Of a stretch of DNA of 64,000 nt, positions 47,406-63,981 are shown piece by piece (the stretch's first letter is position 1; each line of letters begins with the position of its first letter). Source of the DNA: Hymenobacter wooponensis (GTDB lineage Bacteria > Bacteroidota > Bacteroidia > Cytophagales > Hymenobacteraceae); assembly GCF_004745865.1 (NCBI RefSeq), contig NZ_SRKZ01000008.1:124001-188000 (forward strand), in the 5' to 3' direction. Below the pieces are notes generated by a model. It made no database searches, had not been told where the DNA came from, and saw only the letters and a program-made list of their open reading frames with translations. The position numbers and the translations under genes were made by a program.

Positions 47406-47674
47406 CTTGCTTAGGCCAGTCAGCTCCAAAAGCTGTCAGCCCAGGCGCACGGCTGGGAGCGGCTTGGGCGCCTACTCGCCGAGCAGCACCTCGTACCCAG
47501 CCAAGCCAAAGCAGAAGCCATGTTCTTTTATACGGCCGGGCAACGCTACCTGGCTTTTCTGGCGCAGCTCCCGGCCATAACCAACCGGGTACCCTCGGGC
47601 ATATTGCGTCATATCTAGGCATCAAGGGCCCTTCGTTCAGCCGCATCCGGGCCCAATTAGGCACGCAGAAGTAA
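47406..47674 (+). pseudogene. C-terminal remnant of a Crp/Fnr-like regulator
   Basis: Reads LLAEQHLVPSQAKAEAMFFY, TAGQRYLAFLAQLPAITNRV then a one-base shift and GHIASYLGIKGPSFSRIRAQ before the stop at 47672-47674. This is the effector helix plus HTH of the Bacteroidota Crp-like family, the same type as the intact gene at 48310. The cNMP-binding domain is gone. Confidence 0.75.
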
Positions 47675-48215: not shown

Positions 48216-48229
48216 TTACCAAAGGGTAA
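48216..48229. promoter_or_regulatory. FNR-like site TTACC-N4-GGTAA upstream of the Crp-like gene
   Basis: TTACCAAAGGGTAA; half-sites are perfect complements with a 4-bp spacer, the geometry of FNR boxes. It ends 22 nt before the -7-like octamer GACTTTTG (48252-48259). The SDR gene downstream has the same element at the same spacing. Confidence 0.65.
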
Positions 48230-48309
48230 CTTCTTACTGCGCTCCGGGCCGGACTTTTGTTCGTTGGCGCTGCCGGACGCGGCGCCAGCCTTCTGTATTC
48301 CTTGCTGCC

Positions 48310-48933
48310 ATGAACGACTCCCCGCTCACCAACTTTCTGCTGCAATTCCATTATTTCACCCCGCAGCAGCTGCGCCTAATTCAGAGCCGGGCCGTGGCCC
48401 GCACCTACCAACCGGGCGACTATTTTTCCCAAGCCGGACGGGTGGCGCAGGAAATCGGCTTCATCGTATCCGGCATTTTTCGCGTCTGCTATTATGACTG
48501 CGAGGGCACCGACCACACCAAGTACTTTCTCGAAGAAAACCACTTCGTGGTGGACCTGCAAAGCTACCAGTACCAGCAGCCCTGCACGGAGTACGTGCAG
48601 GCCGTCACCGCAACGCACGTGCTCGTGTTTCAGGCGCGCGCCTGGCAGGAGCTGGGCCTAACCATGGTGGATTGGCCCCGAGTCGAGCACAAGCTCTTCA
48701 CGCAGGCGCTGTTAGAGAAGTTGAACCGCCGCAGCGCCCTGGTCAGCCCCAACGGCACGACCCGCTACACGCAGTTCCTGACCACGTTCCCGGGCCTGGC
48801 CAATCGCATTCCGCTCGCGCAGCTGGCCTCCTACCTGGGCCTGACCCCACAGTCGCTGAGTCGCATTCGGCGCAACCTGGGCCAACGGCCCGCCGGGCCC
48901 GCCATTAGCGAGCCGGGTTCGGGGGGCAACTAG
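48310..48933 (+). CDS. Crp/Fnr-family transcriptional regulator
   Basis: 207 residues from the ATG at 48310 (MNDSPLTNFLLQFHYF); the frame is open upstream but that part covers promoter and operator. cNMP-binding beta-roll (about 20-125; PGDYFSQAGRVAQEIGFIV and HFVVDLQSYQYQQPC), long dimer helix, then HTH NRIPLAQLASYLGLTPQSLSR. Bacteroidota members usually do not bind cAMP; the signal is unknown. An SDR gene starts 111 nt downstream with a matching operator, so this is probably an activator of itself and the SDR. Confidence 0.92.
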   Translation: MNDSPLTNFLLQFHYFTPQQLRLIQSRAVARTYQPGDYFSQAGRVAQEIGFIVSGIFRVCYYDCEGTDHTKYFLEENHFVVDLQSYQYQQPCTEYVQAVTATHVLVFQARAWQELGLTMVDWPRVEHKLFTQALLEKLNRRSALVSPNGTTRYTQFLTTFPGLANRIPLAQLASYLGLTPQSLSRIRRNLGQRPAGPAISEPGSGGN

Positions 48934-48972
48934 CTCACCCCGTTACTTACGCTCGTGCAGCCGATGGCGTAT

Positions 48973-48986
48973 TTACCCAAAGGTAA
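48973..48986. promoter_or_regulatory. FNR-like site TTACC-N4-GGTAA upstream of the SDR gene
   Basis: TTACCCAAAGGTAA. Half-sites identical to the copy at 48216 and the same 22-nt distance to the -7-like octamer GACCTTTG (49009-49016). There is no good -33 box, as expected for an activator-dependent promoter. Confidence 0.65.
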
Positions 48987-49044
48987 GTGGGCCGCACCAC
49001 CACTGCGAGACCTTTGTGGGGTACTTCACCAACTTGTACTCCCC

Positions 49045-49779
49045 ATGAAACATGTTCTCATTACCGGTGCCAACAAGAGCATCGGCCTGGAAACTGCCCG
49101 GCTGTTGGCGCAGCAGGGCTATTTTGTCTACCTCGGCTGCCGCGACTTAGTCAAAGGGCAGCAGGCCGTGGCCCACCTGGCAGAAGCCGGCCTTGCCCAC
49201 GTCGAGGCTGTTCAACTCGATGTCTGCGATAAAGCCTCCATTCAGGCGGCCGCAAAGACTATCCGCGCGAAAACCTCGGTTCTGGACGTGTTGATCAACA
49301 ATGCGGGCGTGCTGGGCGCGATGCCGCAAAACGCCTTGCTTACCGGCCCTGACCAGATCCGCGAGGTCTTCGACACCAACTTCTTTGGTCCCATCGAGGT
49401 GACGCTGGCCTTTCTGGAGTTGCTAGAGCCGGCGCCGGTGCCCGTTATTGTCAACATCACCTCCGGCCTGGCCTCGCTCACGTTGCAAAGCGACCCCACC
49501 TGGATCCACGCGCCCTATAAGCTAGCGGCCTACGGCCCCTCGAAAACGGCGCTCAACGCTCATACGGTCTTTCTGGCCCACGAGCTGCGCGCGAAAGGCT
49601 TCAAAGTCAATGCCGTCGACCCGGGCCAGACGGCCACCGACTTTACCGGCCACCAAGGCGGGGCGGTAACGGATGCGGCTCAGTTCGTCGTGCACTACGC
49701 CACGATCGGTGCGGACGGCCCCACCGGGAAGTACTTTAGCCGGGATGCGCCGGCCGGCGAAACCGAAAGCCCCTGGTAG
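49045..49779 (+). CDS. Short-chain dehydrogenase/reductase (SDR)
   Basis: 244 residues from the ATG at 49045 (MKHVLITGANKSIGLE). Cofactor motif TGANKSIG (7-14), DVCDKAS acidic position, NNAGVLG, catalytic Ser in NITSGLAS and Tyr-Lys in YGPSK, closing DGPTGKYFSRD. Belongs to the carbonyl-reductase-like group, to which the remnant at 52325-52652 also belongs. Probably activated by the Crp-like regulator encoded just upstream. Confidence 0.92.
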   Translation: MKHVLITGANKSIGLETARLLAQQGYFVYLGCRDLVKGQQAVAHLAEAGLAHVEAVQLDVCDKASIQAAAKTIRAKTSVLDVLINNAGVLGAMPQNALLTGPDQIREVFDTNFFGPIEVTLAFLELLEPAPVPVIVNITSGLASLTLQSDPTWIHAPYKLAAYGPSKTALNAHTVFLAHELRAKGFKVNAVDPGQTATDFTGHQGGAVTDAAQFVVHYATIGADGPTGKYFSRDAPAGETESPW

Positions 49780-49953: not shown

Positions 49954-50017
49954 AAAACCCCGTTTCACTACCTTCTTGCCGCTGTTACAGCATAAGGAGG
50001 TAGTGAAACGGGGTTTT
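49954..50017. terminator. Bidirectional terminator between convergent SDR genes
   Basis: Arms 49954-49972 (AAAACCCCGTTTCACTACC) and 49999-50017 are perfect 19-bp complements, with A-run on the left and T-run on the right, so it can end transcripts from both directions. Flanking genes are convergent. The 26-nt loop is unusually long. Confidence 0.8.
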
Positions 50018-50216: not shown

Positions 50217-51010
50217 TTATACCACGGGCACAGTCCCCCCATCAATTAAATAGTTGGCGCCGGTCAAGTAGGACGCGGCAGGGGAAACCAGAAAATGAAC
50301 CAGTGAAGCGACTTCCTCCGGTTCGGCCATGCGCCCCATGGGGATGCCGCCCACTTGCGCCGCCATTTGGTGAAAGGTTTCCTCCGCACTCAGGCCAGAA
50401 GTAGCCGCAACCTTCTGAATGAGTCCTTGCATCAGGGGCGTGTTGGTCGCCCCCGGGGAGACAGTCAGCACGCGGACACCTTGGGGGGCCAGTTCATTCG
50501 ACAGCGCTTTGCTGTAGGCATTTAGCCCCGCTTTGGAAACGGCGTACGCCAAATTGTGATTCCACACGGGCTTTACCCCCGCCACCGACGAAATGTGAAT
50601 AATCACCCCGCTTTTTTTCGCCAGCATGTGCGGCAACAGCGCGCGGTCCAGCCGAATGGTCGCCAGCAGGTTCAACTGTAACTCCTGCTCCCAGTCCTGG
50701 TCCGTTAAGCAGCTAAAGCCCCCGCGGGGCGCCGTCACGCCGCCAATATTATCGATGAGAATATCCAGTCCGCCAAACCTTTCGTGGATGGTGTGGGCCA
50801 GCTGGTCTACCTGGTGCGGCTGGGTGATATCGGCTTCGATGAACTGGTGGGCCGAATTGGGCTCCTCGGGCGGCTGGCGGGCGGTAATGATCACCTGGGC
50901 TCCGGCTTCACTTAATTTGTCGGCAATGGCTTTGCCAATGCCTTTGGTGCCGCCCGTTACTAAAGCCGTTTTGCGGCGAGATCTTGGTACTGCGGTGAGT
51001 TGCTTTCCAT
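50217..51010 (-). CDS. Short-chain dehydrogenase/reductase with a frameshifted 5' end
   Basis: SDR with TGGTKGIG, NIGGVTAP, catalytic Ser in HISSVAGV, Tyr-Lys in YAVSK and C-terminal GANYLIDGG. The natural start is the ATG at 51010 (MESNSPQYQDLA), but its frame is joined to the enzyme only if one A is restored in the run near 50972 (GCAAAACGG). The continuous frame as given would have to start with TTG at 51044, which overlaps the -7-like element GACCTTTG and so cannot be a real start. Either a genuine 1-base deletion or a sequencing error. Same-strand partner of the AraC regulator at 51193-52074. Confidence 0.75.
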
Positions 51011-51192
51011 CTGACTCTTTGTTCTGAATAAAATACAGCCGCAAAGGTCTCAGCCTGCTCCACCTGGTGGGTAACTCAAATCAATCGAAAAAGTATACAA
51101 ACCATGCCATTCCCCGCTCTGCCCGGCAGCCGCCCCACCCCAAGAAGCTAGCGTGCGCCGACGCGGGGCAGCGGGCCCGCGCCGGGGGTGGC

Positions 51193-52074
51193 CTAGGCCT
51201 TGCGGCGAAGGGAGAGGGGCGTACGGCCGGTGTGCTTCTTAAAGAAGTTCTGGAAGTAGGTGGGATACTCGAAGCCGAGGCAAGTGGCAATGCTGGCCAC
51301 GCTCCAGTCGGTGTGCAGCAGCAGCGCCTTGGCCTCGTCTAGGATGCGGCCGGCAATATGGGCCCTTGTGGGCTTGCCCGTCACCTGCTTCACGGCTTTG
51401 TTGAGGTGGTTAACCTTCACGGCCAGCCGGTCAGCAAAGTCCTGCGGCGATTTGAGGGGCAGCTGCTGCGCTGGCAGCTCGATCGGAAACTGGCGCTCGA
51501 GCAGTTCCAGAAAGAGCGACGTGAGGCGGGTGGCGGCGTTCTTGGGCTGCAAAACTGGATCCGCCGGCTGCAGGTGCAGCGCCTCGTGAATCAGCAGCTG
51601 CACGTACGTGCGAATCAGATCGCCCTTGAATGGATAGTCCCCTTGCTGTTCGGTCAGCATCTTGTGAAAAATACTCCTGACGTAGGCCGCTTGCGGGGCC
51701 GGAAGTTTAAACAGCGGGGGGCTGCCAAGACGAAACAGCGGCGACTTGTGCAGGCTTGCCGACCGGTCGGCGGTTTTCACAAACTCCTCGGTAAACAAGC
51801 AGGCGTAGGCGTGCAGGTGGTCCGTGCGCAGCTCCAGCGAGTACGGAATATGCGGATTGGTAAAGAACAGGTACGACCCGTCCAGCTCCAGGCTGTGGTG
51901 GGCGTAGTGCAGCAGACACTTGCTCTCCAGCAACAGCACCTTGTAATAGTCACGCCGGCTGAATACCTGCGCCGCCAGCCGGGACTGTTCCGCCGCCGGC
52001 AGCGTAAAGTTTTTCTCGTACACCTTAAAGCCTCGCAGCTGTAAGTCGACGAGGGAAGGGAGGCTAGGGCTCAT
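51193..52074 (-). CDS. AraC-family transcriptional regulator
   Basis: 293 residues. N-terminal cupin-like sensor (RRDYYKVLLLESKCLLHYAH; LFFTNPHIPYSLEL) and C-terminal AraC HTH (ADRLAVKVNHLNKAVKQVTG, RILDEAKALLLHTDWS and CLGFEYPTYFQNFFKKHTGR). Same subfamily as the gene at 40225. TACCTTTG sits only 5 nt before the ATG, so the transcript is probably leaderless. Precedes an SDR gene on the same strand. Confidence 0.92.
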   Translation of the reverse strand: MSPSLPSLVDLQLRGFKVYEKNFTLPAAEQSRLAAQVFSRRDYYKVLLLESKCLLHYAHHSLELDGSYLFFTNPHIPYSLELRTDHLHAYACLFTEEFVKTADRSASLHKSPLFRLGSPPLFKLPAPQAAYVRSIFHKMLTEQQGDYPFKGDLIRTYVQLLIHEALHLQPADPVLQPKNAATRLTSLFLELLERQFPIELPAQQLPLKSPQDFADRLAVKVNHLNKAVKQVTGKPTRAHIAGRILDEAKALLLHTDWSVASIATCLGFEYPTYFQNFFKKHTGRTPLSLRRKA

Positions 52075-52324: not shown

Positions 52325-52652
52325 GGTTTACGAGCCCATACTGCTCAGTTTAACGAGGACCTCGGACGATGCTGGGCGCTTGGGTTTACGCCGTGAAGGG
52401 AACCGTCTACCCCCCCTCCCAAACGGCCCTGAATCCTCCGCCGTGGCGCTGGCCTGTGAACTGCGGGATACGCCCTGCAATTTGAACCTCGTGTGCCCAG
52501 GCCAGGTGGACACCGATTTTGCCGACCACTTACACGAGATCAGGGTCACCGAGGCTGCCGCCCGCGTGGTGAAAGCCAGGCGGCGGGGGCCGGATAGTTA
52601 TACCGGGCAATTTTTCGGCCCAGAGCAAGGGGCTGACCCACCTTCTTCGTAA
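52325..52652 (+). pseudogene. C-terminal half of an SDR gene
   Basis: From about 52430 the frame reads AVALACELRDTPCNLNLVCP, GQVDTDFADHLHEI, EAAARVVK and SYTGQFFGPE before the stop, the end of a carbonyl-reductase-like SDR closely resembling the gene at 49045. Cofactor motif and catalytic Tyr-Lys are missing; the upstream part of the frame is arbitrary. Confidence 0.75.
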
Positions 52653-63678: not shown

Positions 63679-63981
63679 AAAACCTTCCGGCTCCTGTTCC
63701 AACATGCTTTTCTGCTGGAGCAGCACCAGTGCCTGGACCTGCTGCACTATCCGGCCGCCGAACGCTACGCCCGCTTCTGCCACCTATATCCCCGCCTGCG
63801 CCACCGCGTCGTCCAGAAGTACATTGCCTCGTACCTGGGAATGACGCCCGAATTTCTGGGCCACCGGCGCCAATTCCTCACCGGAGTGAGTAGCGGGGAA
63901 ACCGTCCTGAAAAAGCGTTTCCCGGGCGGGCTGCTCCCCTGTGCTTATACCTCTGAAAGTACGGGCAGCCCCAACAACTGA
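63679..63981 (+). pseudogene. C-terminal Crp/Fnr-like remnant in frame with the propeller gene
   Basis: Immediately after the propeller stop, the same frame continues without a start: FRLLFQHAFLLEQHQCLDLL, AAERYARFCHLYPRLRHRVV, QKYIASYLGMTPEFLGHRRQ and stops at 63979-63981. These are the dimer helix and HTH of a Bacteroidota Crp-like regulator, with the recognition helix degraded (SLSRIR is FLGHRR). The tail is arbitrary. Confidence 0.65.

Follow-up and report, generated by a model that had tools for sequence, protein, structure and literature searches.

The window analysed here is a 64,000-nucleotide stretch of contig C19 in the genome of Hymenobacter wooponensis (6.01 Mb, 20 contigs; G000 below), in which a gene for a Crp-like regulator (P0001) is followed by an SDR gene (P0002). 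Each gene is preceded by a TTACC-N4-GGTAA palindrome and an octamer resembling the Bacteroidota -7 box, as set out here in window coordinates.

48216..48229, + strand: operator 1, TTACC-AAAG-GGTAA (TTACCAAAGGGTAA), upstream of the Crp-like gene; predicted to span -48 to -35
48252..48259, + strand: GACTTTTG, the -7-like octamer of the crp promoter, separated from operator 1 by 22 nt; transcription predicted to start at about 48264
48310..48933, + strand: Crp-like regulator gene P0001, 207 aa, with a cNMP-binding domain and a C-terminal helix-turn-helix
48838..48870, + strand: recognition helix of P0001, residues 177-187, GLTPQSLSRIR; Gln181 codon at 48850-48852
48973..48986, + strand: operator 2, TTACC-CAAA-GGTAA (TTACCCAAAGGTAA), lying between the two genes
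49009..49016, + strand: GACCTTTG, the -7-like octamer of the SDR promoter, separated from operator 2 by 22 nt; transcription predicted to start at about 49021
49045..49779, + strand: SDR gene P0002, 244 aa, a classical SDR resembling carbonyl and monoterpene-ketone reductases
49954..50017, strand not assigned: inverted repeat of 24 nt behind the SDR gene, enclosing a loop of 16 nt

A preliminary description of this DNA had reported the two palindromes, an exact 22-nt spacer leading to an octamer at each of them, and the two start codons, and all of these are present at the positions listed. The N-terminal cyclic-nucleotide-binding domain of P0001 is recognised by PF00027 (34.8 bits, cut-off 27.5), while Pfam helix-turn-helix models gave no match to the protein at E <= 0.001. 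A profile of the P0001 family compared with solved chains found 3dn7 as the best match (positions 2-185 of 187, E 8.6e-29), followed by DNR and CAP, and by profile the helix GLTPQSLSRIR aligns to 3dn7 and to ..QPETFSRIM of DNR, where position 181 faces the Glu of PETFSR. Within the helix and its equivalents in 22 aligned sequences, G177, T179, S182, L183, S184, R185 and R187 are invariant. An AlphaFold2 prediction made from three alignment rows had a mean pLDDT of 46.5, too low for use. In the profile alignment to CAP, V81, D82, C92 and T93 of P0001 face phosphate-binding positions, which we take to be G71, E72, R82 and S83 of CAP; the regulator thus appears to lack the phosphate-binding Arg, making cAMP an unlikely ligand. 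Its only three cysteines are C60, C64 and C92, and there is therefore no N-terminal cysteine cluster of the FNR type.

A scan of the contigs of this genome with one protein returned two loci. Among the Crp paralogs of G000 whose helix was read, a tally that leaves out a fragment on C20 and the longer cNMP proteins, P0001 is the only one with Gln181, the others carrying Ser (L002), Glu (L003-L006, L009 and L010) or Val (L007 and L174). The window itself holds two further Crp-like traces on the + strand: a broken C-terminal remnant with an interrupted frame just upstream of the pair (47540-47662, IASYLGIKGPSFSRIRAQLG; tblastn E 0.004), and a C-terminal stretch at 63694-63906 that is 31% identical to P0001 (E 9e-6) with the helix TPEFLGHRR.

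P0002 scores 127.6 bits against adh_short and has both the TGxxxGIG-type cofactor motif (TGANKSIG) and YxxxK (YGPSK). Among solved structures it comes closest to menthone:neomenthol, isopiperitenone and salutaridine reductases, with CBR1 further down. The inverted repeat behind it is possibly the terminator of the crp/SDR unit. Elsewhere in the window, another SDR gene lies beside an AraC-like gene at 50217-52074 on the - strand (identified by eye), and nearby, at 52425-52616 on the + strand, is a short fragment of an SDR C-terminus.

Two exact copies of TTACC-N4-GGTAA in the 64-kb window compare with 0.05 expected, and two copies were reached in 0 of 100 window shuffles; with one mismatch permitted, there are four palindromes against 1.19 expected. 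The bare palindrome carries little weight on its own, given that it occurs 11 times genome-wide compared with four matches for a reversed control pattern. Extending the pattern by N26-TTTG leaves two matches and none for the control, and both are operators 1 and 2 of the window. In the genomes of the family the spaced pattern gave 50 matches in 38 of 200 genomes and four for the control. We considered these 50 matches as members of a regulon and dropped the idea upon inspecting 30 of them, of which 14 lie beside a Crp-like gene and 15 look like chance, most of the latter falling inside genes. At one further inspected locus (L057) a spaced site precedes what by eye is an NmrA-like gene.

The family search of 200 genomes found homologs at E <= 1e-30 in 28, including the genome of the window. 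Five close relatives (L022, L023, L024, L025 and L049) come from four other genomes, L022 and L049 sharing one, and encode Crp proteins 74-93% identical to that of the window; all five keep the SDR neighbour, at 79-90% identity to P0002. The comparison of orthologous upstream regions proposed in the preliminary description gave 12 of 12 sites at exactly 22 nt for the window pair and these five relatives. Mean pairwise identity across the six loci is 1.00 for the half-sites and 0.89 and 1.00 for the octamers, compared with 0.53 and 0.54 for the spacers and 0.34-0.55 for flanks of 20-30 nt. Seven other Gln181 relatives (L026-L030 and L050, at 58-65% identity, plus L090 from the same clade) have no strict operator beside crp, and a P0002-like SDR adjoins crp in none of the seven, L026 having a distant SDR of 30% identity; L027 and L029 have a spaced site before an upstream gene. 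The Crp proteins of L029 and L030 are very close on the tree; no counterpart of the L029 operator was detected in L030, where a transposase-like gene (by eye) lies upstream. At L041 (G029) the Crp-like gene has an internal stop, and both palindromes and the SDR neighbour are still there.

To place this locus among its relatives, searches with other Crp-like groups in 395, 395, 198, 24 and 247 genomes were assembled into a wider set of 241 distinct crp genes, a sample chosen by similarity that is no census and does not include many matches of two of the searches. Pattern-selected loci (L051-L080 and L163-L166), duplicates, sequences with a gap at position 181 and those with less than 60 nt after the stop codon were dropped before counting. 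In 44 of the 241, crp is followed by a P0002-like SDR (blastp E <= 1e-30). Persistence of the sites wherever the gene pair persists had been an expectation of the preliminary description, and before the SDR it is seen in every one of the 44 pairs, each with a 5-4-5 operator and at least three bases of TTTG at 22 nt. The third base of the half-site is A in both arms in 15/15 Gln181 pairs and G in both arms in 28/28 Ser181 pairs, and the single Pro181 pair has TTCAC. Before crp, the palindrome occurs in 37/44 pairs (Gln 12/15, Ser 25/28, Pro 0/1), and together with a box of at least three bases of TTTG at 22 nt in 19/44 (nine Gln, ten Ser). Self-control thus appears to be common but less uniform than control of the enzyme gene. 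Of the self-activating circuit proposed earlier, the DNA anatomy is well supported, with operator and box more regular on the SDR side than on the crp side. These counts also bear on a reading of the two sites as chance resemblance or a recent functionless duplication, for which the weak genome-wide excess of bare palindromes could be cited; considering the excess within the window, half-sites that remain identical in relatives despite diverged spacers, and an operator before the SDR of every pair, we regard it as extremely improbable.

The spacing between operator and box is the second recurrent element. In a strict scan of crp genes taken from the protein and family searches, leaving out pattern-selected loci and stopping at 200 nt, 53 downstream sites lie exactly 22 nt from TTTG, no other distance occurs more than four times, and five sites have no TTTG. 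Upstream of crp, ten sites lie at 22 nt and 26 have no exact TTTG within 50 nt. In E. coli CRP and FNR, the class II activator position is -41.5. The TAnnTTTG box of F. psychrophilum is located at -12 to -5 in the relevant passages of PMC9723704, and if the octamers here sit as in Flavobacterium, both operators would be centred at -41.5 and span -48 to -35, the class II position. On the same basis transcription is predicted to start one nucleotide before each of the positions given in the preliminary description (48265 and 49022). Both GACTTTTG and GACCTTTG lack the first T of TAnnTTTG. In the downstream promoters of relatives the A and TTTG of the box are conserved; the first base is not conserved as T and is G or C in most of the listed Crp/SDR pairs. 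An argument from the absence of a -33 box was considered and then dropped.

A spacing held constant at 22 nt speaks for contact between regulator and polymerase, and hence probably for activation. The same regulator could instead repress, keeping polymerase off both promoters in the absence of an inducer and so acting by derepression and negative autoregulation, a role compatible with an operator that covers the -33 region and could occlude it, and one assumed for another Bacteroidota Crp homolog, CrpPg, in the sections of PMC12040651 that treat it. We regard repression as unlikely, although not negligibly so, as an identical distance to TTTG in 53 downstream sites is better explained by polymerase contact than by occlusion, and a -7 box whose first base is not kept as T is what would be expected of promoters needing help.

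Boxes on the crp side show variation of their own. In crp promoters of the Ser type the box is often TAACTTGC or TAACTTTC. In this genus, the Ser181-type crp promoters of L035-L039, L126 and L002 carry TAACTTGC or TACCTTGC at 22 nt, which fit TAnnTTGY (SM5) and not TAnnTTTG as these motifs appear in part of PMC9723704, where SM5 is a proposed alternative-sigma motif. In eight loci (L040, L044, L081, L082, L084, L085, L086 and L089) the -7-like box ends a few nt 5' of the crp ATG, which would put the predicted start at or near the start codon and may indicate a leaderless crp mRNA.

The identity of the half-site follows residue 181 of the adjoining regulator. Downstream of crp, the strict scan found 16 A/A, no G/G and 25 without a site among 41 Gln181 genes, two of the 25 (L024 and L049) being placed there solely because the 200-nt scan stops short of their sites; among 40 Ser181 genes it found 37 G/G, one mixed, no A/A and two without a site. 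Upstream of crp the corresponding figures are 14 A/A and 27 without a site for Gln181, and 28 G/G, two A/G, one A/T and nine without a site for Ser181. A blind scan of the 241 genes ignored bases 3-5 of the half-site, asking only for outer TT at both ends, at most one arm mismatch, the 22-nt distance and a box with A and at least three bases of TTTG. It found an operator before the next gene in 102/241; mononucleotide shuffling of these stretches gives an expectation of 2.6. The results were as follows for each residue at 181.

Ser: operator in 39/42, all with G
Gln: operator in 22/47; in 19 the third base is A in both arms and at least one arm is TTACC; the others TTCAC/TTCAC, TTAAC/TTCAC and TTAAG/TTAAG; none in 25/47
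Glu: operator in 19/79, 17 with TTGA in both arms (TTGA[C/T/G]); the remaining two, TTTTT/TTATT and TTATA/TTAAA, look like chance
Val: operator in 11/28, TTAAC/TTTAC in seven and TTATC/TTAAC in four
Thr: operator in 4/7, one arm with A
His 3/3, Phe 2/3, Tyr 1/2, Pro 1/3
Arg 0/22, Lys 0/3, Asn 0/1, Asp 0/1; with the outer bases relaxed, the Asn gene has CTACC-AAAT-GGTAG at 22 nt

The half-site therefore tracks residue 181, with TTACC for Gln, TTG[C/T]C for Ser, TTGA[C/T] for Glu and TTAAC or TTATC for Val. A rule by which Gln and Val go with no G at base 3 and the other residues with G fits 98 of the 101 operators with agreeing arms and is broken by three, and a base-4 rule (A for Glu and Val, C for others) fits 88/92. 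The pairing of Glu181 with TTGA[C/T] matches the HcpR1 motif printed in the portion of PMC1274295 that covers it, as well as the FNR site, and provides a check on the method. A stricter version, in which Gln is required for A, was dropped, as Val and, among pattern-selected loci, Gly and Asn (L068 and L069, both with TTACC) also go with A; Gln is thus not the sole route to TTACC. Lys179 occurs with TTCAC-N4-GTGAA in L135 and L150 and may be a second specificity residue; against such a rule, TTGAC is what accompanies L334 (Lys179/Glu181), and no operator was seen at five further Lys179 genes. In a separate PF00027 survey of 24 genomes (40 stretches), 17 genes had a helix recognised by script and four of these a strict operator.

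The tracking of half-site and helix is also what speaks against assigning the sites to a different regulator, such as another Crp paralog or an HxlR-type protein, with the adjacency to P0001 being coincidental. TTACC..GGTAA does occur within longer TGATTACC..GGTAATCA-like palindromes at L038 (position 882) and L015 (position 1460), the former directly before what by eye is an HxlR-like gene. That L038 site, however, has ATCTTGCC and no TTTG box at 22 nt, and the possession of Gln181 by P0001 alone among the paralogs whose helix was read further argues for the neighbouring gene as the source of the binding protein, so that we consider another regulator very unlikely.

A quick tree, from which the recognition helix had been left out, served to ask how often the two characters changed together. 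On it the residue class changes eight times and the base ten times. The best tree yields eight independent pairs, of which seven differ in the predicted way, none in the opposite way and one not at all (196 of 200 random pairings; sign test for 7/7, 0.016). Two pairs lie on strongly supported branches; an earlier, smaller tree gave three pairs with one strongly supported. With so few strongly supported pairs, the tree supports the independence of the residue and base changes only modestly. In CAP, mutants of Glu181 shift specificity at the corresponding base pair. Contact of CAP residue 181 with DNA, as described in part of PMC1274295, is support separate from the tree.

A second Crp/SDR pair in the same genome, on C15 (L002/L118), has Ser181 in its regulator, a TTGCC operator before the SDR and TTGTC-AAAT-GACAA before crp. 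The spaced TTGYC pattern has one match in G000, the C15 SDR promoter; the C15 crp promoter has TAACTTGC and falls outside that pattern. As spaced TTACC is confined to C19 (two matches) and spaced TTGYC to C15 (one), each pair appears to have its own operator, and with Gln181/TTACC and Ser181/TTGCC-N4-GGCAA side by side in one genome the two circuits should not cross-talk. Neither this second pair nor the wider residue-181 code was part of the preliminary description.

From features that can be read in the DNA itself, namely the sites, their exact spacing and conservation, the genome-wide uniqueness of the spaced pattern, the adjacency of the two genes and the way the half-site varies with residue 181, we posit that this locus is probably a local self-regulating class II switch, in which the Crp-like protein acts through TTACC-N4-GGTAA on its own gene and the adjacent SDR gene. 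The protein would bind each operator as a dimer, in which Gln181 of the recognition helix reads the third base, A, of each half-site, and would be centred at -41.5 of two sigma-A-type promoters. With a signal present, it would recruit RNA polymerase to crp and to the carbonyl-reductase-like SDR gene, whose product may remove a reactive carbonyl or similar compound that triggers the switch. Genes adjoining operator-linked Crp genes in the survey, mostly identified by eye, include several SDR types, an aldo/keto reductase, an SRPBCC-like protein, an SMR-like efflux pump and other transporters, which suggests that such circuits sense reactive or foreign small molecules.

More broadly, we lean towards the view, held with little more than even confidence, that Bacteroidota possess a large number of Crp-like activators with a single target apiece, each encoded just before its target gene and acting from an operator placed 22 nt ahead of the -7 box. 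The half-site would depend largely on residue 181 (TTACC for Gln, TTG[C/T]C for Ser, Thr and His, TTGA[C/T] for Glu, TTAAC or TTATC for Val), and paralogous circuits would be kept apart by one residue and one base change per half-site. An isolated pair of palindromes would then become a predictive rule, by which the helix of a Bacteroidota Crp often predicts operator, promoter and neighbouring target, in a phylum where few regulators of this kind have known sites. If true, this would amount to a collection of orthogonal switches already supplied by nature and to a recognition code for the CRP/FNR family that lends itself to testing, the residue-181 rule being testable by exchange of one amino acid and one base. 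Paralogs with different operators could serve as orthogonal components in Bacteroidota genetics and would illustrate cleanly how specificity diverges after duplication of a regulator.

A limited look at the literature found no earlier report of a TTACC-N4-GGTAA Crp operator, its pairing with Gln181, a Crp/SDR pair or a constant 22-nt architecture. To call TTACC-N4-GGTAA a new operator type, as the preliminary description did, is nevertheless too strong: the half-site varies with residue 181 and TTACC is one form among several, and contact of CRP residues 180, 181 and 185 with DNA, with 180 and 181 correlating with operator bases, is already described in portions of PMC1274295, published in 2005. 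Evolution of the CRP/FNR family is treated in PMC12531629, in the main text of which the stem 'Bacteroid' is absent.

Comparison with characterised systems places P0001 within this framework. We know of no operator for 3dn7, annotated as a 'cyclic nucleotide binding regulatory protein' and the closest solved chain to P0001, and its helix differs (TPEYLSEIR, with Glu at 181 and also in place of Arg185). CAP, the cAMP-CRP of E. coli, belongs to the same superfamily and makes the DNA contacts just named (PMC1274295, in part), but its site is TGTGA-N6-TCACA and P0001 lacks the phosphate-binding Arg. CrpPg of Porphyromonas gingivalis is a cAMP-independent Bacteroidota Crp homolog, as P0001 probably is; it is described as a global regulator, and the sections of PMC12040651 concerned with it give no operator of the TTACC-N4-GGTAA type. 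With FNR and HcpR1 (site wyTTGACnnnnGTCAArw in the corresponding part of PMC1274295) the window shares the 5-4-5 palindrome, the S-R helix motif and a class II placement, here predicted, and the surveyed Glu181 relatives give TTGA[C/T] half-sites near the known TTGAC and TTGAT. It differs from them in combining Gln181 with TTACC, in the lack of the N-terminal FNR cysteine cluster and in forming what appears to be one local unit, with two spaced sites in the genome, and no broad regulon. HcpR2, found in Bacteroides, Clostridia and others with GTAACnnnnGTTAC and Pro181, is linked to hcp and has no SDR pair, whereas P0001 adjoins an SDR gene and goes with TTACC, not GTAACnnnnGTTAC; Ser181 and Gln181 variants of HcpR2 have different motifs, which the text of PMC1274295, as far as it covers them, does not print. 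In that partial account HcpR2 resembles the present case in that a change of operator is explained by residue 181.
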